DNA from: an uncultured Hyphomicrobiales bacterium
Lineage (GTDB): Bacteria; Pseudomonadota; Alphaproteobacteria; Rhizobiales; Aestuariivirgaceae
Assembly: GCA_903930095.1 (NCBI GenBank)
Contig: CAIYXE010000602.1
Location: forward strand, 1-11,882
Length of the DNA stretch: 11,882 bases
Direction: 5' to 3'
Positions 700-11,838 of this stretch are shown here, piece by piece (position 1 is the stretch's first letter; each line of letters opens with the position of its first letter). The translations under genes and the position numbers were made by a program. The notes under the pieces are model-generated. The model was given only the letters and a program-made list of their open reading frames with translations. It was not told the origin of the DNA and made no database searches.

Positions 700-1161
700 C
701 TAGATCGGCACGACGTCCGTGTCTTTCACAACCTCGAGAATGACGGAACTCTGCATCTCGCGAATGCCGGGAAGCGAAACGAGATTCCCCTGCAGCAGCC
801 GTTGATAGTGTTCGATATCGCGGACCATGATCCGCAGATAATAGTCGAAGTCTCCAAGCACCAGCAGCGCGATCTGAATCTCGGGAATATCCCGGACGGC
901 CTTCTTGAACGCGTCGAGCAGCTTGGTGTCGTGCGCATGCAGTTTGATCCTCACGATGATGAGCGTGCCGTAGCCTAGTTTCTTTGCATCAAGTACAGTC
1001 TGCCGTCCGCGGATGACGCCCTCAGCCTCCAGATTGGCGATCCGCCGAGAGCAGGCCGATTGAGATATCCCCACCCGCTCGGCGATTTCAGCCACCGTCA
1101 GCCCGCCAGCGCTCTGCATCGCGCGAAGGATGCGGATATCCGTGTCATGAAGCGTCTGCAT
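700..1161 (-). CDS. Lrp/AsnC family transcriptional regulator
   Basis: The 153-aa product has the standard Lrp/AsnC length and layout. An N-terminal winged helix-turn-helix (about residues 5-50) starts with the family pattern LHDTDIRIL and includes TVAEIAERVGISQSACSRR as the DNA-recognition unit. A C-terminal RAM effector-binding domain (about 65-148) carries GDFDYYLRI at 103-111. Such proteins form dimers to octamers and respond to amino acids or related metabolites. The ATG at 1159-1161 lacks a strong Shine-Dalgarno, but the family start pattern supports it. The gene is divergent from the E1-like gene with 136 bases between the starts, the usual arrangement for a local regulator and its target, as in mdeR and bkdR loci. 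It therefore probably controls the E1 gene and itself. The effector is unknown; 2-oxo acids or amino acids such as methionine are candidates by analogy. Its base composition is less GC-rich than the operon's. Confidence 0.93.
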   Translation of the reverse strand: MQTLHDTDIRILRAMQSAGGLTVAEIAERVGISQSACSRRIANLEAEGVIRGRQTVLDAKKLGYGTLIIVRIKLHAHDTKLLDAFKKAVRDIPEIQIALLVLGDFDYYLRIMVRDIEHYQRLLQGNLVSLPGIREMQSSVILEVVKDTDVVPI

Positions 1162-1297
1162 AATATACCCGCTAAATAAGGAATTGTTGCATGAAAAAGT
1201 ACATATTCATATAGAACAGCGCGATCTCTGGCAAGAAAATGTGCGGTATCCGCCTTATTCTCTCCGTCTCATTTCGAGCGTGAGAGGAGAATCAAGA
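1162..1297. promoter_or_regulatory. Divergent promoter/operator region between Lrp regulator and E1 gene
   Basis: This 136-base gap separates two divergent starts and is AT-rich near 1162-1215. A possible rightward sigma-70-type promoter is TTGCAT at 1187-1192, 17 bases, then TATAGA at 1210-1215; the match to consensus is only moderate. Arms AATAAGG (1175-1181) and CCTTATT (1253-1259) form a widely spaced inverted repeat, and GCGG-TAT-CCGC sits at 1243-1253. Lrp-type proteins bind loosely conserved AT-rich sites and wrap DNA, so this region is the expected target, but no operator can be fixed by eye. Confidence 0.4.
1282..1290 (+). promoter_or_regulatory. Strong ribosome binding site deciding the E1 start
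   Basis: GAGAGGAGA lies 7 bases before ATG 1298. The in-frame TTG codons at 1184 and 1187 have no comparable site and fall inside the putative promoter. This supports translation from 1298 rather than the longer frame. Confidence 0.75.
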
Positions 1298-3679
1298 ATG
1301 GCCGAGCTAGGCTCCCTCCAGGACATCCACCGCATCCTGCTCTGGCTGTCCTGCTGGACAATTCACAACGCCAATCACCTGAGACCGAAGAGCGAAGGCG
1401 ACGTGAAGGTGGGCGGGCATCAGGCATCGTCCGCCTCGATGGCCGCCATGATGACCTCTCTCTATTTTCATGCCTTGCGGCCCGATGATCGCGTGGCGGT
1501 GAAGCCGCATGCGGGTCCTGTGTTCCACGCCATGCAGTATCTCATGGGCAATGTCCCGCTCCAGGAGCTGAAGAGCTTTCGTGGCTATGGTGGCGTCCAG
1601 AGCTATCCCTCAAGGACCAAGGACACGGACGACGTGGATTTCTCCACGGGCTCGGTGGGGCTTGGGGCAGCGCTACCGGTATTTGCGTCGATCATTCAGG
1701 ACTACCTGCATGCCCATGGCTGGGCCAGGTCTGTGAATGGCCGTATGGTCGCCCTGATCGGTGATGCCGAGCTCGACGAAGGCAATGTTTACGAGGCCCT
1801 GCAGGAAGGATGGAAGCACGATCTGCGAAACGTCTGGTGGCTGATCGACTATAACCGGCAGAGTCTCGACGGGATTGTACGAGAAGGGCTGTGGAGCCGC
1901 ATCGAGGCGATATTCCCTGCCTTCGGTTGGCGCGTGGTGAAGCTCAAATATGGCCTGCTGCAGCGCGCTGCCTTCGAGGAAGCCGGCGGCAGCGCGTTGA
2001 AGGACTGGATCGACGCTTGCCCCAATGCCCTTTACTCCGCACTGGTCTTTCAGGGCGGCGCGGCGTGGCGCAAGCGGCTTTTCGACGATCTCGGCGACCA
2101 GGGGGCTGCAATGGCACTGATTGAGCGCCGCACCGACGCCGAACTCGCGAGCTTGATGGAGAATCTCGGAGGTCACTGCCTCGCGACGCTCTGCGATGCC
2201 TTCGACGAGGCTGATGATGACCGGCCGACCGTCTTTCTCTGCTATACGATCAAGGGCTGGGGTACGCCTTTGGCCGGTCACAAAGACAATCACGCGGGCC
2301 TCATGACACCATCGCAGATGGACGCCTTCCAGGCTGCCATGGGTGTTCCGAAGGGAGTGGAATGGAACCCCTTCGCGGCCGCGCGGAATGCGCCTGTGCT
2401 AAAGGCGTTTCTCGATACCATACCCTTTTTCGCCAAGGGCAGGCGGCGCTACACCGCGCGCCGGATAGAGGTGCCTGAAAGGGTTGAACTTGATGATCGT
2501 TTTCAGTCGACGCAAGCAGGCTTCGGAAAGATACTCGACGAGATCGCGCGAACCGGGGGCGATCTCGCAGCTCGGATCGTCACGTTCTCTCCGGACGTGA
2601 CGGTCTCGACTCATCTGGGTCCGTGGGTCAACAGGCGCGGCCTCTTCGCCAGGGACCCTCGCGAAGATACGTTCCGCGATGAGCGCATCGCCTCCGCGCA
2701 GAGATGGGCATTTTCGCCTGGCGGTCAGCACATCGAACTGGGCATTGCCGAGATGAACCTGATGCTGGCGCTCGGCGCCGCCGGACTGTCTCACGCGCTC
2801 TTCGCGGAACGTCTGATCCCCATCGGCACGGTGTATGATCCGTTCATCGCCCGCGGGCTCGATGCCCTCAACTATGCCTGCTACCAGGATGCCCGCTTTC
2901 TTCTGGTGGGAACGCCCTCCGGCGTTACACTGGCGCCGGAAGGCGGCGCACATCAGTCGATTGCATCGCCGCTGATCGGCATGGCGCAGGATGGTCTTGC
3001 CTCCTTCGAACCAGCCTTCGTCGATGAGCTATCAGTCATCATGAACTGGAGCTTCGATTACCTTCAGAGGAATGGTGACGGCGATCCCGATGAGCGAACC
3101 TGGCTCCGCGACGAGACGGGCGGTTCCGTGTATCTGCGACTGTCCACTCGGCCAGTCGAACAGCCGATGCCGCGCGACGGAACGAAGTTCACTCAGGGAG
3201 TGATCGATGGAGCATATTGGCTGCGGGAACCAGGGCCGAATGCGGAGGTCGTCATTGCTTATCAGGGAACGGTAGCAACGGAAGCCATCGCGGCTGCGGG
3301 CCGGATCGCGGGCGACCGCCGGGGCATCGGCGTTCTTGCTGTCACATCAGCCGACCGGTTGAATGCCGGCTGGACCGCGGCACGGCGCGCCCGCGCCCGC
3401 GGCCATACCAGCGCAGCCTCTCACATCGAATCCTTGCTGCAGTGTCTCCCCTCACATTGCGTGCTGATCACAGTACTGGACGGGCATCCTGCTACCTTAT
3501 CTTGGCTGGGTTCAGTGGCAGGCCAACGAGTGGTTCCGCTCGGTGTCGAGCATTTTGGTCAGACGGGTACAATTGCCGAGCTTTACCGCCACTTCCAAAT
3601 TGACGCCGACGCCATCGTGGGAGCAGCAAGTCGCATCGTGCCCGGAAGACCGGTGCGGCTCGTTGGATTCCAAACCTAG
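1298..3679 (+). CDS. AceE/MdeB-like 2-oxo acid dehydrogenase E1 (thiamine diphosphate)
   Basis: The 793-aa product is a homodimeric-type E1, which decarboxylates a 2-oxo acid using thiamine diphosphate. The cofactor motif is GDAELDEGN at 155-163, with N186 in DYNRQSLDG. Histidines matching E. coli AceE active-site positions are H41 (GGHQAS), H71 (KPHAGP), H332 (DNHAG) and H552 (GAHQS). The cofactor-activating glutamate is E485 in GIAEMN. The C-terminal domain (about 655-790) ends with the AceE-like pattern FGQTGTIAELYRHFQIDA. It is about 90 residues shorter than AceE, mostly because the N-terminal E2-binding segment is missing; no E2 or E3 gene is nearby. Beside an Lrp gene, it recalls Pseudomonas MdeB, a putative 2-oxobutyrate dehydrogenase E1, but no methionine gamma-lyase gene is present. 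The substrate is therefore uncertain: 2-oxobutyrate, pyruvate or another 2-oxo acid. It converges on the lactonase gene, 85 bases away, with no clear terminator between. Confidence 0.85.
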   Translation: MAELGSLQDIHRILLWLSCWTIHNANHLRPKSEGDVKVGGHQASSASMAAMMTSLYFHALRPDDRVAVKPHAGPVFHAMQYLMGNVPLQELKSFRGYGGVQSYPSRTKDTDDVDFSTGSVGLGAALPVFASIIQDYLHAHGWARSVNGRMVALIGDAELDEGNVYEALQEGWKHDLRNVWWLIDYNRQSLDGIVREGLWSRIEAIFPAFGWRVVKLKYGLLQRAAFEEAGGSALKDWIDACPNALYSALVFQGGAAWRKRLFDDLGDQGAAMALIERRTDAELASLMENLGGHCLATLCDAFDEADDDRPTVFLCYTIKGWGTPLAGHKDNHAGLMTPSQMDAFQAAMGVPKGVEWNPFAAARNAPVLKAFLDTIPFFAKGRRRYTARRIEVPERVELDDRFQSTQAGFGKILDEIARTGGDLAARIVTFSPDVTVSTHLGPWVNRRGLFARDPREDTFRDERIASAQRWAFSPGGQHIELGIAEMNLMLALGAAGLSHALFAERLIPIGTVYDPFIARGLDALNYACYQDARFLLVGTPSGVTLAPEGGAHQSIASPLIGMAQDGLASFEPAFVDELSVIMNWSFDYLQRNGDGDPDERTWLRDETGGSVYLRLSTRPVEQPMPRDGTKFTQGVIDGAYWLREPGPNAEVVIAYQGTVATEAIAAAGRIAGDRRGIGVLAVTSADRLNAGWTAARRARARGHTSAASHIESLLQCLPSHCVLITVLDGHPATLSWLGSVAGQRVVPLGVEHFGQTGTIAELYRHFQIDADAIVGAASRIVPGRPVRLVGFQT

Positions 3680-3764: not shown

Positions 3765-4643
3765 CTAAGCGCCGAACCGCGGTTCGGGCACACCCTTGAT
3801 CCCGAGGCCGGTGATCGCGAACAGGCTGCCGCGCAGAACGCCATCGCCCGGGAAGCGGGGTAGCGGCGGCTTGGCCATGGAAGTTACGTAGAGCACGTCC
3901 ATGTTCGGTCCGCCGAACATCACGCTCGTTACCTTCTTCACCGGCATCTCGATCACCCGGTCGACCTTGCCGTCGGGCGTGTAGCGGATGAGCTTACTGT
4001 CATAGACCTGGGCATTCCACAGGCAGCCCTCAGCATCGACCGTCGAGCCGTCCGCCGCACCGCCGCGCGAGGTGTCGAGCTTGACGAAGGTGCGGCGATT
4101 CGACAGCGTGCCGCTCTTGATGTCATAGTCATAGGCCCAGATCTCGCCCGACCATGAATCGGCGAAATAGAAGATGCGGTCGTCCGGGCTCCAGCACGGG
4201 CCGTTGGAGACGATGATGCCGCTCTCGACCTTGGTGACCTTGAAGTCCGGGTCGAGCCGGTAGAGCGCGCCGTTGGGGCCTGACTCCTGGCTGTCCATCG
4301 TGCCGGCGAAGAAGCGGCCGCGGCGATCCACCTTGCCGTCATTGATCCAGTTGTTGGGCTGGCCGGGCTCGATCTCCGCGATGAGCGGGCACTCGCCGGT
4401 GCCGAAGTCGAGCGCGTGGAAGCCTTTGGCGAGCGAGCAAATCGCACCCTTGCCGTCCTTCCGTATGGCGATCGAGCCGACGCGCGACGGGACATCCCAG
4501 GCGCGGACCTCGGTTCCCTGCGCAGTGGCGCGGAACACGCGCATCCCGGTGGCGTCAATCCAGTAGAGCCGCTGCTGCTCGACATCCCACAGGGGGCCTT
4601 CGCCGAGCGTCGTCTTCACATCGACCAGAACTTCGATCTTCAT
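3765..4643 (-). CDS. SMP-30/gluconolactonase family sugar lactonase, copy A
   Basis: The 292-aa product is a six-bladed beta-propeller of the SMP-30/regucalcin/gluconolactonase family, which hydrolyses sugar lactones to aldonic acids with a divalent metal. Metal ligands by family pattern are E15 (LGEGPLWD), N147 (VSNGPCWS) and D198 (ADGSTVDAEG); N101-D102 in INDGKVDRRG matches the substrate-binding loop. Length is normal for the family. No signal peptide is visible, so it is cytoplasmic. The start is supported by GGAGGA at 4648-4653. It is the last gene of the operon, 12 bases behind its paralogue, to which it is identical at roughly half of positions by eye; both end in GVPEPRF. It probably opens the lactone made by an operon dehydrogenase. 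Which lactone, and how the copies divide the work, cannot be read from the sequence. Confidence 0.9.
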   Translation of the reverse strand: MKIEVLVDVKTTLGEGPLWDVEQQRLYWIDATGMRVFRATAQGTEVRAWDVPSRVGSIAIRKDGKGAICSLAKGFHALDFGTGECPLIAEIEPGQPNNWINDGKVDRRGRFFAGTMDSQESGPNGALYRLDPDFKVTKVESGIIVSNGPCWSPDDRIFYFADSWSGEIWAYDYDIKSGTLSNRRTFVKLDTSRGGAADGSTVDAEGCLWNAQVYDSKLIRYTPDGKVDRVIEMPVKKVTSVMFGGPNMDVLYVTSMAKPPLPRFPGDGVLRGSLFAITGLGIKGVPEPRFGA

Positions 4644-4655
4644 GCTGTCCTCCGT

Positions 4656-5528
4656 TTATCCCTTGAAGCGTGGCTCAGGCACGCCGCGAACGCCGAGCCC
4701 GTGAATGGCGAAGACGGCGCCGGCCTCCGCCTCCTTGTGGTAGGCATTGCGGTGGGGCCGCGCCATGGACGTTACATAGGCGATGTCGAGATCGGGTCCC
4801 CCGAAGATGAGGCTGGTGGTGGAGTTGACGGGGAGTCCCACGATCCGGTTCACCACGCCGTTGGGATCGAAACGGATGAGGCGGCCGGAATATACTTCGC
4901 AGCTCCACACATAGCCTTCCGCGTCGACGGTGGCCCCGTCGGGCAAGCCGCGCTGGGTCTCGAAGCTGGTGAAGACTCGGCGCGAGCGCACGTCGCCTGT
5001 CGCCGTGTCGTAGTCATAGGCGTAGATCACCTTGCGGCCGGTATCGGCGAAATAGAGGGTCTTGCCGTCGAGGCTCCAGCACGGACCGTTGGAGCAGATG
5101 AGGCCGTGGTCAAGCTCATGCACCGAGAGGTCGTGGTCGAGCCGGAACAGCTTGCCGACAGGGTTCGCCTCCTCGAAGTCCATGGAGCCCGCGACGAAGC
5201 GGCCCTGGCGGTCCACCTTGCCGTCATTCATGCGCGCGGTGAGCTGGCCAGGCTGTGTCTCGGCGATCAGTGTCACCTCGCCCGTCTGGAAGTTGAGCGC
5301 GTGGAAGCCGGAGCGCAGTGAGACGATGGCGCCGCCCTTCTCGCGGAGCGCGATGGAGCCCACGGGCTCCGGCAGGCGCCAGCTCTTACGGTCGCCGCCG
5401 CGCGCATCGCAGGAGAAGACGGCGGGACCATAGGAATCGATCCAGTAGAGGCGCTGTTCCGCGACGTCCCACAGCGGGCCTTCGCCTAGGTCGTTGCGGT
5501 CTTCGCTGAAGACTTCGATGCGCAGCAT
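4656..5528 (-). CDS. SMP-30/gluconolactonase family sugar lactonase, copy B
   Basis: The 290-aa product is a second SMP-30-family beta-propeller lactonase. Expected metal ligands are E16 (LGEGPLWD), N147 (CSNGPCWS) and D197 (LPDGATVDAEG), with N101-D102 in MNDGKVDRQG for substrate contact. All key positions are intact, so neither copy is a decayed duplicate. Differences from copy A cluster at about residues 30-50 and 115-145 and near the C-terminus (about 258-270), surface loops that could tune lactone preference. The start has AGAGGA at 5535-5540, and the gene begins 11 bases after the BKACE stop. The C-terminal motif VRGVPEPRF is shared with copy A, which suggests a tandem duplication followed by divergence, though acquisition of two related genes is also possible. 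No signal peptide is visible; it likely acts in the cytoplasm on the same pathway. Confidence 0.9.
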   Translation of the reverse strand: MLRIEVFSEDRNDLGEGPLWDVAEQRLYWIDSYGPAVFSCDARGGDRKSWRLPEPVGSIALREKGGAIVSLRSGFHALNFQTGEVTLIAETQPGQLTARMNDGKVDRQGRFVAGSMDFEEANPVGKLFRLDHDLSVHELDHGLICSNGPCWSLDGKTLYFADTGRKVIYAYDYDTATGDVRSRRVFTSFETQRGLPDGATVDAEGYVWSCEVYSGRLIRFDPNGVVNRIVGLPVNSTTSLIFGGPDLDIAYVTSMARPHRNAYHKEAEAGAVFAIHGLGVRGVPEPRFKG

Positions 5529-5539
5529 GGCGTGTCCTC

Positions 5540-6475
5540 TCAGAAGGCGACCTTGTCGCCTCCCTTCAGTTCAAGGATCTGGCGGGCCTCATCGGGGGTC
5601 GCGACCTCCATGCCCAAACCTTCGATGATCTTGCGGGCGAGCAGCACCTGCTCGGCGTTGGACTTGGCGAGCTTACCCTTGCCGGCCCACAGGCTGTCCT
5701 CGAGGCCGACGCGGATGTTGCCGCCGAGTGCGGCGGACTGCGCCGCGACGCGAAGCTGTGCTGCACCCGCACCCAGCACCGACCAGCGGAACTTGTCGCC
5801 GAACAACCGGTCAGCCGTGCGCTTCATGTGGGCGACGTCCTCCGGGTGGCTGCCGATGCCGCCCAAGAGGCCGAAGACCGACTGCACGAAGAAGGGCGGC
5901 TTGACGAGGCCACGGTCGGCGAAATGCGCGAGGTTGTAGAGATGCGCGATGTCGTAGCATTCGAACTCGAAGCGCGTGCCGTTGTCGTAGCAGGTCTGCA
6001 GGATATACTCGATGTCCTTGAAGCTGTTGCGGAACACGAGGTCGCGCGTGGCTTCGAGGTGGGTCTTCTCCCAGTCGAACTTGAAGGTCTTGTACTTGTC
6101 GAGCAGGTGGTAGAGCCCAAAGTTGATGGAGCCCATGTTGAGCGAGGCCACTTCTGGCTTGAAGGTGGCGGCGGGCTTCACGCGCTCCTCGACCTTCATG
6201 TAGGGGCTGCCGCCGGTGGTGATGTTGATCGCAGCCTTCGTACCCTGCTTGATGCGCGGCAAGAAGCGCGCGAAGGCCTCGGGCGTCTGGTCGGGCTTGC
6301 CGGTCTCCGGATCGCGCGCGTGGAGGTGCAGGATGGCGGCACCGGCGTCCGCCGCGGCGATCGCCTCGCGCGCGATCTCGTCGGGCGTGATGGGCAGGTA
6401 GGGCGACATGGTGGGCGTGTGGATGGCACCTGTCACGGCGCAGGTGATAATGACCTTATCCTTGAGGACCGTCAT
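5540..6475 (-). CDS. Beta-keto acid cleavage enzyme (BKACE, DUF849; Kce-like)
   Basis: The 311-aa product is a TIM-barrel enzyme of the BKACE family, founded on 3-keto-5-aminohexanoate cleavage enzyme of lysine fermentation. Members use acetyl-CoA to cleave a beta-keto acid into an acyl-CoA and acetoacetate. Zinc ligands are H50 and H52 (LHLHARD) and E259 (GLEDSLW); catalytic R255 and D260 match Kce Arg226 and Asp231. ITTGGSPY at 85-92 is the conserved family loop. Family members act on amino-, carnitine-derived, dicarboxylic and polyhydroxy beta-keto acids, so the name 'aminohexanoate' should not be taken literally. Position 18 in TGAI is isoleucine where, from memory, Kce has an amine-binding glutamate, which argues against an amino substrate. 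Its ATG overlaps the stop of the 3-dehydrogenase gene as ATGA, implying translational coupling with the enzyme that would make its beta-keto substrate. Lactonases and a sugar importer nearby point to a sugar-derived beta-keto acid. Confidence 0.88.
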   Translation of the reverse strand: MTVLKDKVIITCAVTGAIHTPTMSPYLPITPDEIAREAIAAADAGAAILHLHARDPETGKPDQTPEAFARFLPRIKQGTKAAINITTGGSPYMKVEERVKPAATFKPEVASLNMGSINFGLYHLLDKYKTFKFDWEKTHLEATRDLVFRNSFKDIEYILQTCYDNGTRFEFECYDIAHLYNLAHFADRGLVKPPFFVQSVFGLLGGIGSHPEDVAHMKRTADRLFGDKFRWSVLGAGAAQLRVAAQSAALGGNIRVGLEDSLWAGKGKLAKSNAEQVLLARKIIEGLGMEVATPDEARQILELKGGDKVAF

Positions 6476-7428
6476 GATCCGATCTCTTTCAATGCTTTCT
6501 TCTTGTGGGCCGCAAGGGCCATGAGTCGGCGGTCACGCCAGACCTGGCGCTCCTGCAGCTTGTCGGCGGGAACTTTCTTGCGGCGGTCCTTCTCGACCTC
6601 CTCCATGACGGCGCCCGTCCAGTCGACGCGGCGCAGCATCTGGGGGAAGAGGTTCTCGTAGATCCGCTGGTAGCGCTCGGCATAGTCGCGCACGCCGCCC
6701 GGCGCGTTGAGGTCGATGGTCTCGAAGGGTCCCATGAAGGACCAGCGCAGCGCCAGCCCGTCACGGATGCCGGTGTCGACATCCTCGACACTCGCATAGC
6801 CATCCGCCACCAGCCGGAATGCCTCCTCGAGGAGGGCACCCTGCATGCGGTTCATGATGAAACCGTCGAGCTCCTTCTTCATCACCAGCGGGGCGTGCCC
6901 TGCTAAGACGAGGAACTGGCGCGTGCGCTCCACCGTCTCGGGCGTTGTCCACGGGGCGGGGACGACTTCAGCCGCGGGGATCAGATAGGGCGGGTTGATC
7001 GGGTGCACCACGATGCAGCGGCCGCGTCCCTTCAGCCCTTCGGTGAATTTCGAGGGGAGCAGGGCGGAGGTGGAACTGGCGAGAACCGCATCGGGACGCG
7101 CCACCGCGTCGAGCCGCTCGAACACCTTGATCTTGGTGGCGAGATCCTCCGGCGTGTTCTCCTGCACGTGGGAGGCCACGGCGAGCGCCTCCTCCAGCGT
7201 CTCGCAGGGGGCGATGCGGGAGAGCACAGTGCCGGTACTCTGGCCGTTCAAGAGGTCGTTGGCGGCGAGGTCGTCCAGCACGCCGGTGATGTAGTCCACG
7301 GCCTTGCGGGCAGCACCCTCCGCCTGGTCCCACAGCCTGACGTTTGCGCCCGCCCGCGCGAAGCTGATCGCCCAGGCCCGGCCGATGAAGCCGGAGCCGA
7401 CGATGGCGGTTTCAGAGGGTTTCAACAT
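6472..7428 (-). CDS. Lambda-crystallin/L-gulonate 3-dehydrogenase-type hydroxyacid dehydrogenase
   Basis: The 318-aa product belongs to the 3-hydroxyacyl-CoA dehydrogenase fold and most resembles CRYL1 (L-gulonate 3-dehydrogenase), which oxidises the 3-hydroxyl of sugar acids and of 3-hydroxybutyrate with NAD. Visible features are the Rossmann motif GSGFIG (11-16), D34 ending beta-2 (NAD preference), the ASSTSALLPSKF segment (117-128), the His-Glu catalytic pair H142 and E154 (12 apart, as in the family) and N193. The tail pattern ERQVWRDRRLM also matches CRYL1. It makes beta-keto acids, exactly the substrate class of the BKACE encoded next; the two genes overlap by ATGA. The start at 7426-7428 has GGAG at 7438-7441, nine bases before; ATG at 7432-7434 is closer to that site. 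Either start overlaps the SDR gene end (17 or 23 bases). L-carnitine dehydrogenase is a relative, but its sequence pattern fits less well and no carnitine genes are present. Confidence 0.87.
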   Translation of the reverse strand: MLKPSETAIVGSGFIGRAWAISFARAGANVRLWDQAEGAARKAVDYITGVLDDLAANDLLNGQSTGTVLSRIAPCETLEEALAVASHVQENTPEDLATKIKVFERLDAVARPDAVLASSTSALLPSKFTEGLKGRGRCIVVHPINPPYLIPAAEVVPAPWTTPETVERTRQFLVLAGHAPLVMKKELDGFIMNRMQGALLEEAFRLVADGYASVEDVDTGIRDGLALRWSFMGPFETIDLNAPGGVRDYAERYQRIYENLFPQMLRRVDWTGAVMEEVEKDRRKKVPADKLQERQVWRDRRLMALAAHKKKALKEIGS

Positions 7429-8218
7429 TTCCATCAACTCCAAGGGATTGTCCCGATATGCTGGCGCCGGCGGCCGACAGCAGGAAGGCCACCATGTCCG
7501 CCACATCATAGGGGCTGACCATGCGGCGGAGCGAGACCTTCTCGAGGTAGCGCTCCTCCATCGCCTCGTGGCTGAGGCCGAGCTGCGCGGCGCGGTCGGC
7601 GATGACCTTGTGCATGCGCGGGCCCTCGACGATGCCGGGCAGGATCGCGTTGACGCGGATGTTCGACGGCCCGAGCTCCTTGGCGAGGCTCTGGGTGAAA
7701 CCGACCACGGCGAACTTGGCGGAGGAATAGGGCGTGCGGAACGCATAGCCATGGCGGCCCGCGGCGGACGACATGTTGACGATCGACCCGCCGCCCGCAG
7801 CCTTCAGCATCGGCACTGCGAGCCTCGCGCAGAGGAACTGCCCGGTGAGGCAGACGTCGATGCAGCGCCGCCAGTCGGCCGGGCTAATCTCGTCCACGCC
7901 GCCCGTGGGCCCCGCGATGCCGGCATTGTTGATGAGGGCGTCGAGCCCGCCGAGCTCCCGCTTCACCATGGCGAAGAGCGCATCGACATCGGCATCGACC
8001 GAGACATCCGCCTTGCAGGCGGCAACGCCCGGCAGTTGCTTTCGGGCAGAGACGATGGCCTCGTCCGAGATGTCGCAGATCGCGATCTTCGCGCCTAGCG
8101 CGGACAGGGTGCTTGCGATGGCGATGCCGATGCCGGAGGCACCCGCCGTCACCAGCACGCGCTGGCCTGAAAGGCCGCGGAGGAAATCGGCCGCCGAGGC
8201 CGGAACGGTGTGACCCAT
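7412..8218 (-). CDS. Short-chain dehydrogenase/reductase (SDR), NAD-dependent, sugar or sugar-acid type
   Basis: The 268-aa product is a classical SDR. It has the nucleotide motif TAGASGIG (24-31), D49 at the end of beta-2 (NAD rather than NADP), NNAG (97-100) and the catalytic set S151, Y164 and K168 (YSSAK). The C-terminal GQSLGVDGN follows the usual SDR ending. Two roles fit the operon: oxidation of an aldose at C1 to a lactone, which would feed the lactonases, or oxidation of an aldonate at C3. The known 2-deoxy-D-ribonate 3-dehydrogenase is itself an SDR. Because a separate 3-dehydrogenase is encoded next, the C1 role is slightly favoured; this is inference. The start has AGGAG at 8225-8229, and the gene begins 9 bases after the permease stop. 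Its 3' end carries the ribosome binding site and start of the following dehydrogenase gene. Confidence 0.9.
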   Translation of the reverse strand: MGHTVPASAADFLRGLSGQRVLVTAGASGIGIAIASTLSALGAKIAICDISDEAIVSARKQLPGVAACKADVSVDADVDALFAMVKRELGGLDALINNAGIAGPTGGVDEISPADWRRCIDVCLTGQFLCARLAVPMLKAAGGGSIVNMSSAAGRHGYAFRTPYSSAKFAVVGFTQSLAKELGPSNIRVNAILPGIVEGPRMHKVIADRAAQLGLSHEAMEERYLEKVSLRRMVSPYDVADMVAFLLSAAGASISGQSLGVDGNVETL

Positions 8219-8227
8219 GTTTAACTC

Positions 8228-10279
8228 CTAACTCTTCCGGTCGCGCAGCGCGATCACGGCACCCAGCACCACGAGGCCGAAGAGGATCGCGCGGGTGGCA
8301 TAGGGCAGCGTGGTGCCTGCAAGGAATGTCTGCAAGGCGGTGAGCAGCAGCACGCCGCCCAGCATGCCGAGGTAATGGCCGCGCCCGCCGGTGATGAGTG
8401 CGCCGCCCACCACCACGACCGCGATCGACGGCAGGAGATAGTCATCTCCCATGCCGAGGCTCGCCTGGCCCGAGAAGCCGGTGAGCAGGATGCCGACGAG
8501 GGCCGAACACACGGCAGAGAGCACATAGACGAGGATCAGCGTGCGCCCGACCGGAATGCCGGAGAGCTCCGCCGCGCGCAGCCCATTGCCGATGCCGTAG
8601 ACGCGCCGCCCGAAGGGCGTGCGGCCGAGGAGCGTGACGGCGGCGATGACGAACAGCACCATGAACAGAACGACGGGCGCCACGGGTCCGATCTTGCCCG
8701 TCATGAACCAGCGCAGCATGGGCGAGGAGAAGCCGTCGGGCGTTCCGTTGGAATAAAGAAGTGCCACGCCCTGCAGCAGGCCATTGGTAGCCAGCGTCAT
8801 GACGATGGGCGACAGGCCGAGGAAGACGATGCCCAGCCCGTTTACAAGTCCGATGACACAGGCCAGCAGCAGCACCGCGGGCAGCGCATAGATGAGGGCC
8901 GCATCCGAACCCTTGACCATCCCTGCGAGCAGGATGCCGCAGAGGCCGATGGTCCATGGCACAGAGAGGTCAAGGCCGCCCGTCAGGATCACCGTGCCCT
9001 GGCCGAGGGCGAGGATGGCGAGAAAGCTCGACAGGACGACGAGCGAGTTCCAGTAGCCGGTGTTGAGCAGTGCGCCGCCGAGCCACAGCTGTGTGACCGC
9101 CACGACCAGCACGAAGCAGAGATAGGCGGGAAGGGTGTAGCGCAGCACATCCGCATTGCGCTTGAAGAAGCCGGGCCGCTCGCCCGCCGCCGGTTGGTCC
9201 GCGCTTGCGGCGAGCCTGAGGCGCGTATCGCCCTCGGCGCGCTGCTTGACCAACGTTCCGGCGCGCCGTGCTGACAGCCTGGTGCCGATGATGCGCAGCT
9301 GCCTGGCCAGTGTGGAGGAGCGCGACAGCGAGCCCGCGAGCACCGCGAGGATGAGGATCATTCCCTCCGCGATGGTCGAGTAATAGGCCGAGACATTGAG
9401 GACCAGCAGGATGTTGACGACGATGATGAGGATATAGGCACCGATGGCGCTGCCCAGCGGCCCGCCGCGCCCGCCGCCGAGCCTGGTGCCGCCCACGACC
9501 ACGGCCGCGAACATCGACAAGAGCAGCGGATTGCCGACCAGCGGGTCGCCGCTGCCCGTCTGCGCGCTGATGAAGACGCCGGCCAGGCCGTAGCAGCCGC
9601 CCGCGATCACATAGACGAGGAAGCGCACGAACGGCACGCGGACGCCGACGGCTGCCGCTGCATCAGGGTCGCTGCCGACGGCGTAGATGGCGGTGCCAAG
9701 GCGGGTGCGCTTCAGCCAGGCCCAGGCGAGCAGCACGCCTCCGACGACAACGAGCGGCATGGGAATCCAACCCGGAATCGCATCGCCCATGTAGAAGGCG
9801 CCGATGGAGGGCGAGACGAAGCCGCCCGGCTTGTCCATCAACAGCAGCGTCACGCCCTGAATGATGAACATGGTGGAGAGTGTGACGACGATCGGCTGCA
9901 GCCGGAGGAAGGCGATGAAGATGCCGTTGAAGGCGCCGCACAGCATGCCGATGCCGATGCCCGCGAGGCTCCACAGCAGGACGCTCGCCTCCATGTTGGC
10001 GGGGTCCATGCTCTGCGCGAGGAAGACGTTGACGAGCGAGATCACCGCACCTGCCGACAGGTCGAAGCCGCCCGACAGGATGACGATGGTCTGCCCGATC
10101 GCCGCCAGGGCCGAGGTGGCGCCGCCGCTCGACATGAAGGAGATGTCGAAATAGGTGAGGGGGCCGGTGTTAATGCCGGCGACGGTGCCGAGCAGCACGG
10201 CGAAGACGAGTGCTGCGATCAGCACGCCGCTGTTGGAGGCCAGTGCGCGGCGGACCCAGGGAACGGAGGCGTCATTCAT
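8228..10279 (-). CDS. Fused double permease of a ribose-type sugar ABC transporter
   Basis: The 683-aa inner-membrane protein joins two RbsC-like permease domains (BPD_transp_2), about 15-320 and 380-680, where the family usually has one of about 320 residues. Each half has the family signature near its first third (GGFDLSAG at 70-77, GGLDLSVP at 434-441), a coupling-loop region facing the ATPase ([16 protein letters not shown] at 195-210, [16 protein letters not shown] at 557-572), and a VVVGG segment near its end (261-264, 622-626). The linker at about 320-378 is rich in Arg, Lys and Ala, as expected for a cytoplasmic loop. The halves are clearly diverged, so this is a heterodimer in one chain, not a recent duplication. 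Its ATG overlaps the ATPase stop as ATGA. With the ATPase it should import a monosaccharide or small sugar derivative; which one cannot be read from the membrane domain. Confidence 0.92.
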
Positions 10280-11838
10280 GCGGCCTGCCCCTCGTCGTGG
10301 TGGTCATGGCCCAGTGCCGGGCGCATGATGGCGCTTTCGCTCAGCTTCTCGCTGCCGATCTCGGCGGCCACGCGGCCGGCATAGAGAACCAGAACTCGGT
10401 CGCACAGATGCACCAGTTCGGGCACCTCGGTCGAATGGAAGAGGATGGAGCCTCCGGCATTGGCGAAGTTGCGCATCATCACATAGAGTTCATGCTTGGT
10501 GCCCACGTCGATGCCGCGCGTGGGATCAAACAGCAGCAGGATGCGGCTCTGCGCCACCAGCCATTTCGAGATGGCGATCTTCTGCTGGTTGCCGCCGGAG
10601 AAGGCGCCAGCCCTTGTCCACAGCGCGCGCTCATTGACCTCGACCGTGGCGAAGGCCCGCCGGACGGCGGCTTCTTCTTCCTCAATGCGGATCAGCCCGC
10701 GTGGCGCGAAGCGGCTGATGACGGGAAGCGAGGCGTTGGTGCGGCCGTCGAGCTTGAGGAACAGACCCTCCGTCTTGCGGTCCTCAGGCACGAGGCCCAT
10801 CGAGACGCCCGCCGTCATCGCATCGACGGGTGAAGTGATGGCGGTCTTGCGGCCATCGACGAGGATGTCGCCCGACTTCACCTCCGTCATGCCGAAGCAG
10901 GCGAGGAAGAGGTCGAGCTGTCCCATGCCCTGCAGGCTCGCGATGCCGAGGATCTCGCCCTTGTGCAGGTCGAAAGAGACGTCCTCCAGCTTGTTGCCGG
11001 CCCTGAGGCTGCGCGCCGCGAGAACCGGGGCGCCGAAGCTCGAACGGTCCTTGGGGCGGGGCGGGAACGTCTGGGAGATGCTGCGCCCGACGATCTTCTC
11101 GATCACGTCCGAGTCCGAGATATGGTCGACACCGGTGGTGAGGATGTGGCGTCCGTTGCGCAGGATGGTCAGAGTATCGCAGAAGGCGCGGACCTCGCGC
11201 ATGCGGTGCGAGATGAAGACGATGGTCTTGCCGGCGGCCTTCAGCCTTGCGATCAGCCCGCCCAGCCAGTCGACGTCCTCGCCCGAGAGCGTCGAGGTCG
11301 GCTCGTCAAGAAGCAGGATGCGGGGTTCGCGATAGATCGCGCGGGCGATCTCGATCTTCTGCTGCAGGGCGAGGTCGAGGCGGCCGACCTCCTCGTCTAG
11401 GTCGACGTAAAAGCCCAGCTCTTCGAGGTGGCGGTCGATGGCGGCGCGCGCGCTGCGGCGGCGGATCATGCCCGTCACGCCCAAGGGCGCATAGGGCAGC
11501 ATCATGTTGTCGAGCACGGAGAGATCGCGGATCAGCGTCATCTCCTGGAAAGCGGTCTGGATGCCGCAGCGGTGCGAGGCACGCGGCGAACCCAGGGTGA
11601 CGGACCGGCCTTCCACCTCGATCGAACCGCTATCGGGCAGCATCAGGCCGGAGAGAAGCTTGACCAGCGTCGACTTCCCGGCTCCATTTTCACCGAGCAG
11701 CGCGTGCACGCTGCCGGGGTGGATGTCGAAGGACACGTCATCGACGGCAACGGTAGGCCCGAAGGCCTTGCGGATGCCTTTGACGCTGATAGCGGTGGGG
11801 GTGTGATCAGGGCTCATGCCATCAGGTCCGGCGTGCAT
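10276..11838 (-). CDS. Sugar ABC transporter ATP-binding protein, RbsA-like, two nucleotide-binding domains
   Basis: The 520-aa product has the tandem ATPase layout of RbsA/MglA/XylG proteins. The first domain (about 17-250) is complete: Walker [10 protein letters not shown] (49-57), signature-like [14 protein letters not shown] (154-167), Walker B ILLLDEP (174-180) and switch H211. The second domain (about 272-505) has a good signature FSGGNQQK (413-420), but its Walker A is replaced by LQGMGQLD without lysine, and its Walker B reads LLLFDPTRG, with Phe and Asp where Asp-Glu is usual. One composite ATP site (first-domain Walker motifs plus second-domain signature) should remain active, which is typical of this family. 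The start is uncertain: ATG 11836-11838 and ATG 11815-11817 both lack a strong ribosome binding site, and each is preceded by GCCGGACCT. The first could give a seven-residue extension. It energises the fused permease encoded directly downstream. Confidence 0.92.

Follow-up and report, generated by a model that had tools for sequence, protein, structure and literature searches.

The 11,882-base window analysed here is one entire contig (CAIYXE010000602.1) of the 90%-complete draft genome of an uncultured Hyphomicrobiales bacterium (GCA_903930095.1). It carries an operon for an ATP-binding cassette (ABC) sugar importer of the CUT2 (ribose) type, a short-chain dehydrogenase/reductase (SDR), a dehydrogenase of the CRYL1 type, a beta-keto acid cleavage enzyme (BKACE) and two SMP-30 lactonases, termed SMP1 and SMP2 (Table 1). 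Open reading frame (ORF) calls, Pfam and NCBIfam confirmed the seven co-directional, packed genes that an earlier note had described from the sequence alone; by their coordinates, the seven minus-strand ORFs across 11838-3765 overlap by 4, 23 and 4 bp or are separated by gaps of 9, 11 and 12 bp. The two permease domains are encoded by one fused gene, the SGL scores of the two SMP-30 proteins in Pfam are 274.7 and 276.8 bits, and the top NCBIfam matches of the ATPase are xylose, arabinose, allose and ribose ATPases, all under their cut-offs. A public contig (L009; loci and genomes are denoted by L and G numbers) matches the window at 99.87% over 11,786 aligned columns, with 13 mismatches and 1 gap opening, and extends it upstream, where a periplasmic sugar-binding protein is encoded at 2412-3542 and, divergently, a GntR regulator at 1587-2267. 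With this binding protein, the CUT2 set of double-ABC ATPase, BPD_transp_2 permease and periplasmic component is complete, and the proposed union of a dedicated importer, lactonases, a 3-dehydrogenase and a neutral-class BKACE in one transcription unit is supported.

Table 1. Genes of the operon in the window, in the direction of transcription.
Feature	Positions	Strand	Evidence
CUT2 (ribose-type) ABC importer ATPase, 520 aa	10276..11838	-	Pfam ABC_tran x2
Fused importer permease, 683 aa	8228..10279	-	Pfam BPD_transp_2 x2
SDR, deoxyribonate-dehydrogenase family, 268 aa; putative 3-dehydrogenase	7412..8218	-	Pfam adh_short; identity to deoxyribonate-cluster SDRs
CRYL1-type (lambda-crystallin / L-gulonate 3-dehydrogenase-like) dehydrogenase, 320 aa; putative second 3-dehydrogenase	6472..7434	-	Pfam 3HCDH_N + 3HCDH
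BKACE, predicted neutral-substrate class, 311 aa	5540..6475	-	Pfam BKACE PF05853, 362.7 bits
SMP1, SMP-30 lactonase 1, 290 aa, accessory	4656..5528	-	Pfam SGL
SMP2, SMP-30 lactonase 2, 292 aa, deoxyribonolactonase group	3765..4643	-	Pfam SGL

The grouping of these genes is not due to chance because CRYL1-type, BKACE, SMP-30 and CUT2 genes recur within 9 kb in 47 unique loci, including L009. Loci were taken from a CRYL1-type search of species genomes, of which the best 80 of 568 relatives were used, from 40 of 50 further CRYL1-type rows, from 40 hand-chosen regions out of 47 and 84 BKACE rows (some in both), and from hand-picked plasmid records. Removal of 12 duplicates from 139 BKACE places left 127 unique places, around which partners were tallied within 9 kb; the sampling is biased and is no census, both flanks span 5 kb or more in 107 of the 127, contig ends truncate many loci, and some gene orders, including those of L256 and L273/L274, come from a simple codon-score gene caller. 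BKACE is accompanied by CRYL1-type, SDR, SMP-30 and CUT2 importer genes in 46 places and by the same set without the SDR in one (L063). CRYL1-type and SDR genes are the partners in 30 places and are joined by the importer in 3 others, the CRYL1-type gene is the only partner in 14 and the SDR in 8, SDR and SMP-30 occur together in one (L256), SMP-30 stands alone in one, and 23 places have none of the partners. In evenly drawn samples that include the window's own genome, 45 of 385 genomes from the class encode the CRYL1-type protein (E <= 1e-60), and BKACE (E <= 1e-115) is encoded in 71 of 385 from the class and in 41 of 398 from the phylum. No paper on this operon type was found in the open-access literature, as judged from listings; in two papers (PMC12215611, PMC7387576), deoxyribonate occurs in the reference lists.

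Three cluster types for deoxyribonate catabolism were described by Price et al. 2019 (PMC6365646), and loci of corresponding layout were recognised. L256 (in G556) has the Pseudomonas simiae layout, with a divergent GntR gene and the order SDR-BKACE-SMP30-MFS-MFS, where MFS is a major facilitator superfamily transporter; L273 and L274 have the Paraburkholderia bryophila set of SDR, second SDR, MFS, BKACE and divergent regulator (AraC by Pfam in L274); and L277 of Klebsiella pneumoniae has the Klebsiella michiganensis set of CoA-synthetase, CoA-transferase, FabG, thiolase, MFS, SMP30, MFS and glycerate kinase. These genomes are not those of the paper's strains and were matched by layout and identity, and the cross-identities among them agree with or come close to the values given in PMC6365646: 67% against 70% for the lactonases, 66% and 56% against over 50% for the MFS transporters, and 56-57% (BKACE) and 44-46% (SDR) against 50 to 60% for the pair. 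The window BKACE shares 62% with that of L256, 58% with L273 and 55% with L274, which spans the cross-type range, so that it groups with the BKACE of the published clusters. The window SDR shares 53% with L274 and 51% with L273, which are of the Burkholderia type, and 48% with the Pseudomonas-type homologue of L256, and other SDRs in the neighbourhoods are at most 39% identical; a deoxyribonate-dehydrogenase homologue, as in the BKACE-type pathway, is thus present in the operon. SMP2 shares 63% with the lactonase of L256 and 61% with that of L277 and is accordingly a homologue of the deoxyribonolactonases of the P. simiae and K. michiganensis clusters. Because all three proteins fall within the diversity of the published cluster types, the SDR, BKACE and SMP2 are best read as the known deoxyribonate set. 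The likeness to the deoxyribose/deoxyribonate route drawn in the earlier note therefore appears to be more than an analogy, the three proteins being homologous one for one to genes of genetically tested clusters (PMC6365646), and the general idea of a CoA-dependent oxidative cleavage by BKACE holds. On balance, the operon probably encodes the oxidative deoxyribonate pathway in a form that has its own importer and whose substrate would most likely be 2-deoxyribonolactone or a close relative.

The BKACE assignment is well above the NCBIfam threshold (NF053538, 545.2 bits, cut-off 430), and the catalytic and zinc-site residues H50, H52, E172, R255 and E259 are kept. In a by-eye alignment, Ile18 occupies the position of Glu14 of Kce, the 3-keto-5-aminohexanoate type of BKACE, in which Glu14 presumably anchors the substrate amine. 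The window BKACE appears, from its residues and relatives, to belong to the neutral-substrate class, and a carnitine or aminohexanoate substrate is disfavoured by Ile18 and by the NCBIfam carnitine-dehydrogenase scores given below. BKACE15 of Paracoccus denitrificans (8RIO/8RIP/9HNF) is identical in 194 of 309 aligned columns (63%; 8rio) and shares the zinc-site and catalytic residues; according to PMC11961710, it accepts beta-ketopentanoate and 5-hydroxy-beta-ketohexanoate, its physiological role is unknown, and its context is said to suggest aromatic degradation.

The SDR is best read, from its relatives, as a 3-dehydrogenase rather than as the sugar 1-dehydrogenase that had been supposed at first. 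Its family is that of deoxyribonate dehydrogenase, the purified P. simiae SDR had no activity on deoxyribose (PMC6365646), and linked candidates for sugar oxidation are molybdenum hydroxylases (L086, L253). The 1-dehydrogenase role is disfavoured by the identity comparison and the tree because the SDR, BKACE and SMP2 fall inside the deoxyribonate-cluster diversity. The rows of this tree were selected at a minimum of 46% identity and reduced from 87 to 49, with four outgroup rows, and the 49 BKACE-linked SDRs form one clade (support 95/93) apart from the four other SDRs. On a Mesorhizobium plasmid, L283 is a decaying operon copy in which a CRYL1-type remnant (9763-10183) lies between the SDR and BKACE genes and the importer genes are absent.

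The CRYL1-type protein scores 475.8 bits with PRK06129 (cut-off 347) and lies far under the cut-offs of two carnitine-dehydrogenase models (182.4 against 592 and 176 against 414) in NCBIfam. Its best solved relatives are the CRYL1 / L-gulonate 3-dehydrogenase structures 3ado and 3f3s, with which it shares family, length and active-site positions: S123, H144, E156 and N195 align with S124, H145, E157 and N196 of rabbit lambda-crystallin, which we take to be the catalytic residues. CRYL1 itself presumably serves the glucuronate-xylulose route, whereas the window enzyme is coupled to BKACE. Twelve genomes with CRYL1-type and BKACE genes and no linked SDR, or in a similar situation, were searched for the SDR at E <= 1e-50; 8 gave a match, and the other 4, the complete genomes G140 and G536 and the drafts G313 and G127, gave none. 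Among five SDR-only genomes, a CRYL1-type match at E <= 1e-30 is lacking in G556, and the others have matches elsewhere of 33-42% (G335, G675, G725) or 45% (G613). Since BKACE is thus found with either dehydrogenase where the other is missing (G140; G556), each can apparently supply BKACE alone, which argues against the CRYL1-type enzyme as the sole 3-dehydrogenase, as had been proposed.

SDR 3-hydroxybutyrate dehydrogenases act on D-3-hydroxy acids, 3-hydroxyacyl-CoA dehydrogenases and L-gulonate 3-dehydrogenase act on L-3-hydroxy compounds, and C3 of 2-deoxy-D-ribonate is D-configured. From these general preferences, we infer that the CRYL1-type enzyme may be a second, unrelated dehydrogenase for the opposite configuration at C3, forming a stereo-complementary pair with the SDR. 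In a joint form of this proposal, the SDR (D at C3), the CRYL1-type enzyme (L at C3) and two lactonases would funnel C3-epimeric or enantiomeric 2-deoxypentono-lactones, taken up by one ABC importer, into one 3-keto acid and one BKACE, and the 3-hydroxyisobutyryl-CoA hydrolase (HIBCH)-type enzymes of relatives would be the missing glyceryl-CoA hydrolase; we hold this combination as a whole to be possible but rather doubtful. If the stereochemical idea is true, two unrelated dehydrogenases feed one CoA-dependent cleavage enzyme. CRYL1-type and BKACE genes also occur with branched-chain-amino-acid-type ABC importers and divergent SDR/GntR genes in L091, L094, L097, L169 and L243, the first two of which also carry an alpha/beta hydrolase; these loci probably perform related chemistry on a different substrate.

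The lactonases had been counted as a difference from the known route. Having two is indeed one, but a lactonase as such is not, since the P. simiae and K. michiganensis clusters each have one (PMC6365646); the P. bryophila and Burkholderia phytofirmans clusters have no close lactonase homologue. SMP2 is 52% identical to SMP1, and most of the SMP-30 matches listed in rhizobial plasmids share 47-50%. The SMP-30 tree has two sides (90/97 at the drawn root), with SMP2 beside the L256 and Klebsiella lactonases and SMP1 on the opposite side. SMP1-type proteins (at least 58% identity) occur in 16 of 60 loci with SMP-30, a tally that is not de-duplicated and includes five hand-added plasmid loci. A PF04199 cyclase-family gene (L052 10605-11354, by Pfam; 82-97% identical in L056, L063 and L083) is possibly another lactone hydrolase; in these four loci, the SDR lies apart from the CRYL1-type-BKACE pair or was not found. 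In the Burkholderiaceae loci L100, L248 and L282, SDR and BKACE stand with a metallo-beta-lactamase-fold gene, which in L282 is annotated as a member of the N-acyl homoserine lactonase family; importer, CRYL1-type and SMP-30 genes come next.

The lactone or the acid is the probable cargo of the importer. Among the 46 other full operons, the binding protein was matched in 45, at 68-85% identity, and in all 46 the permease is 50-83% identical over the best aligned stretch and the ATPase 53-78%; the binding protein thus seems to be more conserved than the permease, as would be expected for one conserved ligand. Between the binding-protein gene and the divergent GntR gene of L009 lies TTGATCTTTGATCAA (2321-2335), and the operator-like palindrome TTGATC-N3-GATCAA was found in 29 of 45 such intergenic regions (not de-duplicated) and nowhere within the window itself. 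A scan of seven genomes with the palindrome TTGATCNNNGATCAA as query returned two sites: one in G632, between the GntR gene and the SDR-CRYL1-type-BKACE genes, and one in G489 (C1), on another contig than the BKACE operon of that genome. The search in these seven genomes established no further regulon members, and the window's draft genome gave no match, its contig stopping short of the site.

A few relatives have genes for the later steps linked to their operons. Downstream of its operon, on the same strand, Agrobacterium Q15/94 (L093) encodes a chemoreceptor, a MOFRL-type glycerate kinase and an HIBCH-like protein (425.9 bits, cut-off 274), and Rhizobium ruizarguesonis (L090) has the same downstream genes, with the HIBCH-type gene cut by the locus end, plus a nickel racemase set. 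In Ancylobacter (L052 and L056), a different HIBCH-type gene (40% identical; L052 copy at 12623-13660) lies between SMP-30 and SDR, so that 4 of the 47 full operons, from two lineages, have an HIBCH-type hydrolase nearby. The conversion of glyceryl-CoA to glycerate was listed in 2022 by GapMind as an 'unknown glyceryl-CoA hydrolase' (PMC9007349), and the HIBCH-type enzyme is a candidate for this step. The racemase set of L090 (LarA, LarC, adenine nucleotide alpha hydrolase and LarB; 15377-19414), between the chemoreceptor and the glycerate kinase, is of the nickel-pincer type; speculatively, it might act as a racemase on a 2-hydroxy acid, glycerate for example, in keeping with an L-configured C4 substrate. 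A three-subunit molybdenum hydroxylase, twin-arginine-like at its start as judged by eye, comes after the operon in Lichenibacterium (L086), and such an enzyme also stands between SMP-30 and BKACE in L253 (both by Pfam). These linked enzymes recall the molybdenum deoxyribose dehydrogenase of P. simiae and suggest that, in operons that include a sugar oxidation, a molybdenum enzyme carries it out. In L100, 2Fe-2S and molybdopterin genes lie upstream of the GntR gene on the same strand, and L255 and L273 have such genes near BKACE. The compact run of SMP-30, FAD, 2Fe-2S and molybdopterin subunits and BKACE in L253 (9023-14830), with neither dehydrogenase family adjoining, is possibly a sugar-to-BKACE route of its own.

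In the importer-equipped deoxyribonate route favoured here, the CUT2 importer would take up a 2-deoxypentono-lactone or its acid, with 2-deoxy-D-ribono-lactone as the likeliest substrate, and SMP2, with SMP1 as an enzyme of second specificity, would open the lactone to 2-deoxypentonate. Oxidation of C3 with NAD to 2-deoxy-3-ketopentonate may then fall to the SDR and the CRYL1-type enzyme side by side, with each enzyme assigned its configuration as above. BKACE could cleave this intermediate with acetyl-CoA to glyceryl-CoA and acetoacetate, after which glyceryl-CoA would pass through glycerate to 2-phosphoglycerate and acetoacetate to acetyl-CoA. The pathway of P. simiae, P. bryophila and B. 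phytofirmans shares the SDR deoxyribonate dehydrogenase and BKACE, that of P. simiae also the lactonase, and the proposed products of the BKACE-type pathway, glyceryl-CoA and acetoacetate, are the same (PMC6365646). In contrast to it, the window operon type has the CRYL1-type dehydrogenase and a second SMP-30 protein as extra genes, and its divergent regulator is of the GntR type, with an operator-like palindrome of its own. The acyl-CoA pathway of K. michiganensis has the same lactonase group (SMP2 61%, via L277) and a glycerate kinase in the cluster but uses CoA-synthetase, deoxyribonyl-CoA dehydrogenase and thiolase in place of BKACE (PMC6365646).

Several observations weigh against the deoxyribonate route. 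The published clusters use MFS transporters, whereas the window operon has a CUT2 ABC importer and no MFS gene, and the carbon oxidised by the deoxyribonate SDR was left undetermined by Price et al. (PMC6365646). The single SDR clade is weak evidence because its rows were preselected at 46% identity or more and the outgroup branches are very long (tool warning). Within the tree, the window SDR falls in a 26-row clade (98/99) whose loci all carry a CRYL1-type gene, and SDRs without such a gene nearby (L256, L273-L275, L099, L101, L262 and L284) fall in the remainder of the tree, in part intermingled with CRYL1-bearing rows; L283, outside the tree, has a 72%-identical SDR beside BKACE and retains the CRYL1-type remnant. 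Therefore, the role of the SDR could have shifted inside the window's clade. The SMP2 side of the lactonase tree also holds lactonases of other settings (L280, L281), and the binding protein has no close solved relative, the best being 4pe6 (96.8 bits) and then 4rs3 (73.4). HIBCH was not detected near 43 of 47 full operons, glycerate kinase (two searched types) lies near only 2 of 47 (L090 and L093), and the 90%-complete draft genome of the window has no HIBCH-type match above 29% identity and a glycerate kinase in two partial pieces on separate contigs.

The most serious rival, which we nevertheless consider unlikely, is that the importer brings in 2-deoxyribose, the SDR oxidises C1, the lactonases open the ring, and the CRYL1-type enzyme alone oxidises C3 before BKACE cleavage. 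The sugar type of the importer agrees with this, as do the 15 of 127 places with CRYL1-type and BKACE genes but no SDR (14 without other partners and L063; 3 of the 15 cut off within 5 kb), the 4 of 12 such or similar genomes that lack an SDR match, and the presence of a CRYL1-type gene in all 50 BKACE places with a CUT2 importer, many of which were, however, found via that gene. It conflicts with the position of the window SDR within the sequence range of deoxyribonate-dehydrogenase homologues, the inactivity of the P. simiae homologue on deoxyribose, and the molybdenum enzymes as linked sugar-oxidiser candidates in L086 and L253. In 9 of 127 places, SDR and BKACE also stand together where the CRYL1-type gene is absent or, in L283, reduced to the remnant, G556 having no CRYL1-type match at all at the threshold used and the other four SDR-only genomes only the 33-45% matches elsewhere. 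The same chemistry on another 2-deoxy acid, such as 3,4-dihydroxybutyrate (giving glycolyl-CoA) or a 2-deoxyhexonate, is a distinctly unlikely reading. Neutral-class BKACE enzymes are promiscuous, as the BKACE15 substrates in PMC11961710 indicate, the lactonase pair does not fix the chain length, and the binding protein is distant from solved ones, but the glycerate kinase and HIBCH-type hydrolase of the few relatives best fit a C3 glyceryl product, and the lactonase and SDR homology points to a C5 compound.

The earlier note had also raised a substrate that keeps its C2 hydroxyl, from which BKACE would release a hydroxylated acetoacetate. The importer is of ribose type and CRYL1 relatives presumably oxidise L-gulonate, in which the C2 hydroxyl is present; nothing that was found points to such a substrate, no operon gene suggests handling of hydroxylated acetoacetate, and the BKACE, the SDR and the lactonase all fall with their counterparts of the 2-deoxy pathway. 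A C2 substituent is absent from every BKACE substrate named in the available parts of PMC6365646 and PMC11961710, and we regard this variant as very improbable. A non-sugar beta-keto acid pathway, for dehydrocarnitine, aminohexanoate or an aliphatic acid, is scarcely credible for this operon: BKACE homologues of 62-73% identity do occur in other surroundings, for example with acyl-CoA dehydrogenases in L102, and 23 of 127 places have none of the partners, but here two lactonases and a CUT2 sugar importer share one operon, and the carnitine-dehydrogenase models score far below their cut-offs. Ile18 in place of Glu14 of Kce, the presumed amine anchor, speaks against it as well.

If the importer-equipped deoxyribonate route is true, a pathway with genetic support in three genera extends to many Alphaproteobacteria, those among the loci seen including Mesorhizobium, Phyllobacterium, Rhizobium, Agrobacterium and Ancylobacter. 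It would also predict a substrate for a group of orphan sugar importers and binding proteins, correct the likely function of SDR and CRYL1-type genes annotated merely as generic dehydrogenases, and offer a concrete candidate for the glyceryl-CoA hydrolase listed as unknown in 2022 (PMC9007349). What is new relative to the deoxyribonate pathway would be the importer, the second 3-dehydrogenase and, in few relatives, the candidate thioester hydrolase.

Beside the operon, the window encodes a single-chain pyruvate-dehydrogenase-E1-like protein (1184-3679, plus strand) and a divergent Lrp regulator (700-1161, minus strand). These genes were considered as pathway members and are taken to have a separate function because their homologues adjoin methionine gamma-lyase in Ruegeria and Sulfitobacter, an arrangement that we take to be mdeR-mdeA-mdeB-like; the window has no such lyase. 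E1-like (65-68%) and Lrp-like (34-39%) genes also stand beside CRYL1/BKACE genes in L039, L083 and L091. In the otherwise near-identical L009, the E1-like gene is split into two frames near residue 95, which may be an assembly difference or real. L009 is labelled Rhizobium sp. Q54, a label that may be wrong because the closest relatives of the SDR, CRYL1-type protein and SMP2 among the fetched loci are those of Taklimakanibacter (L010).

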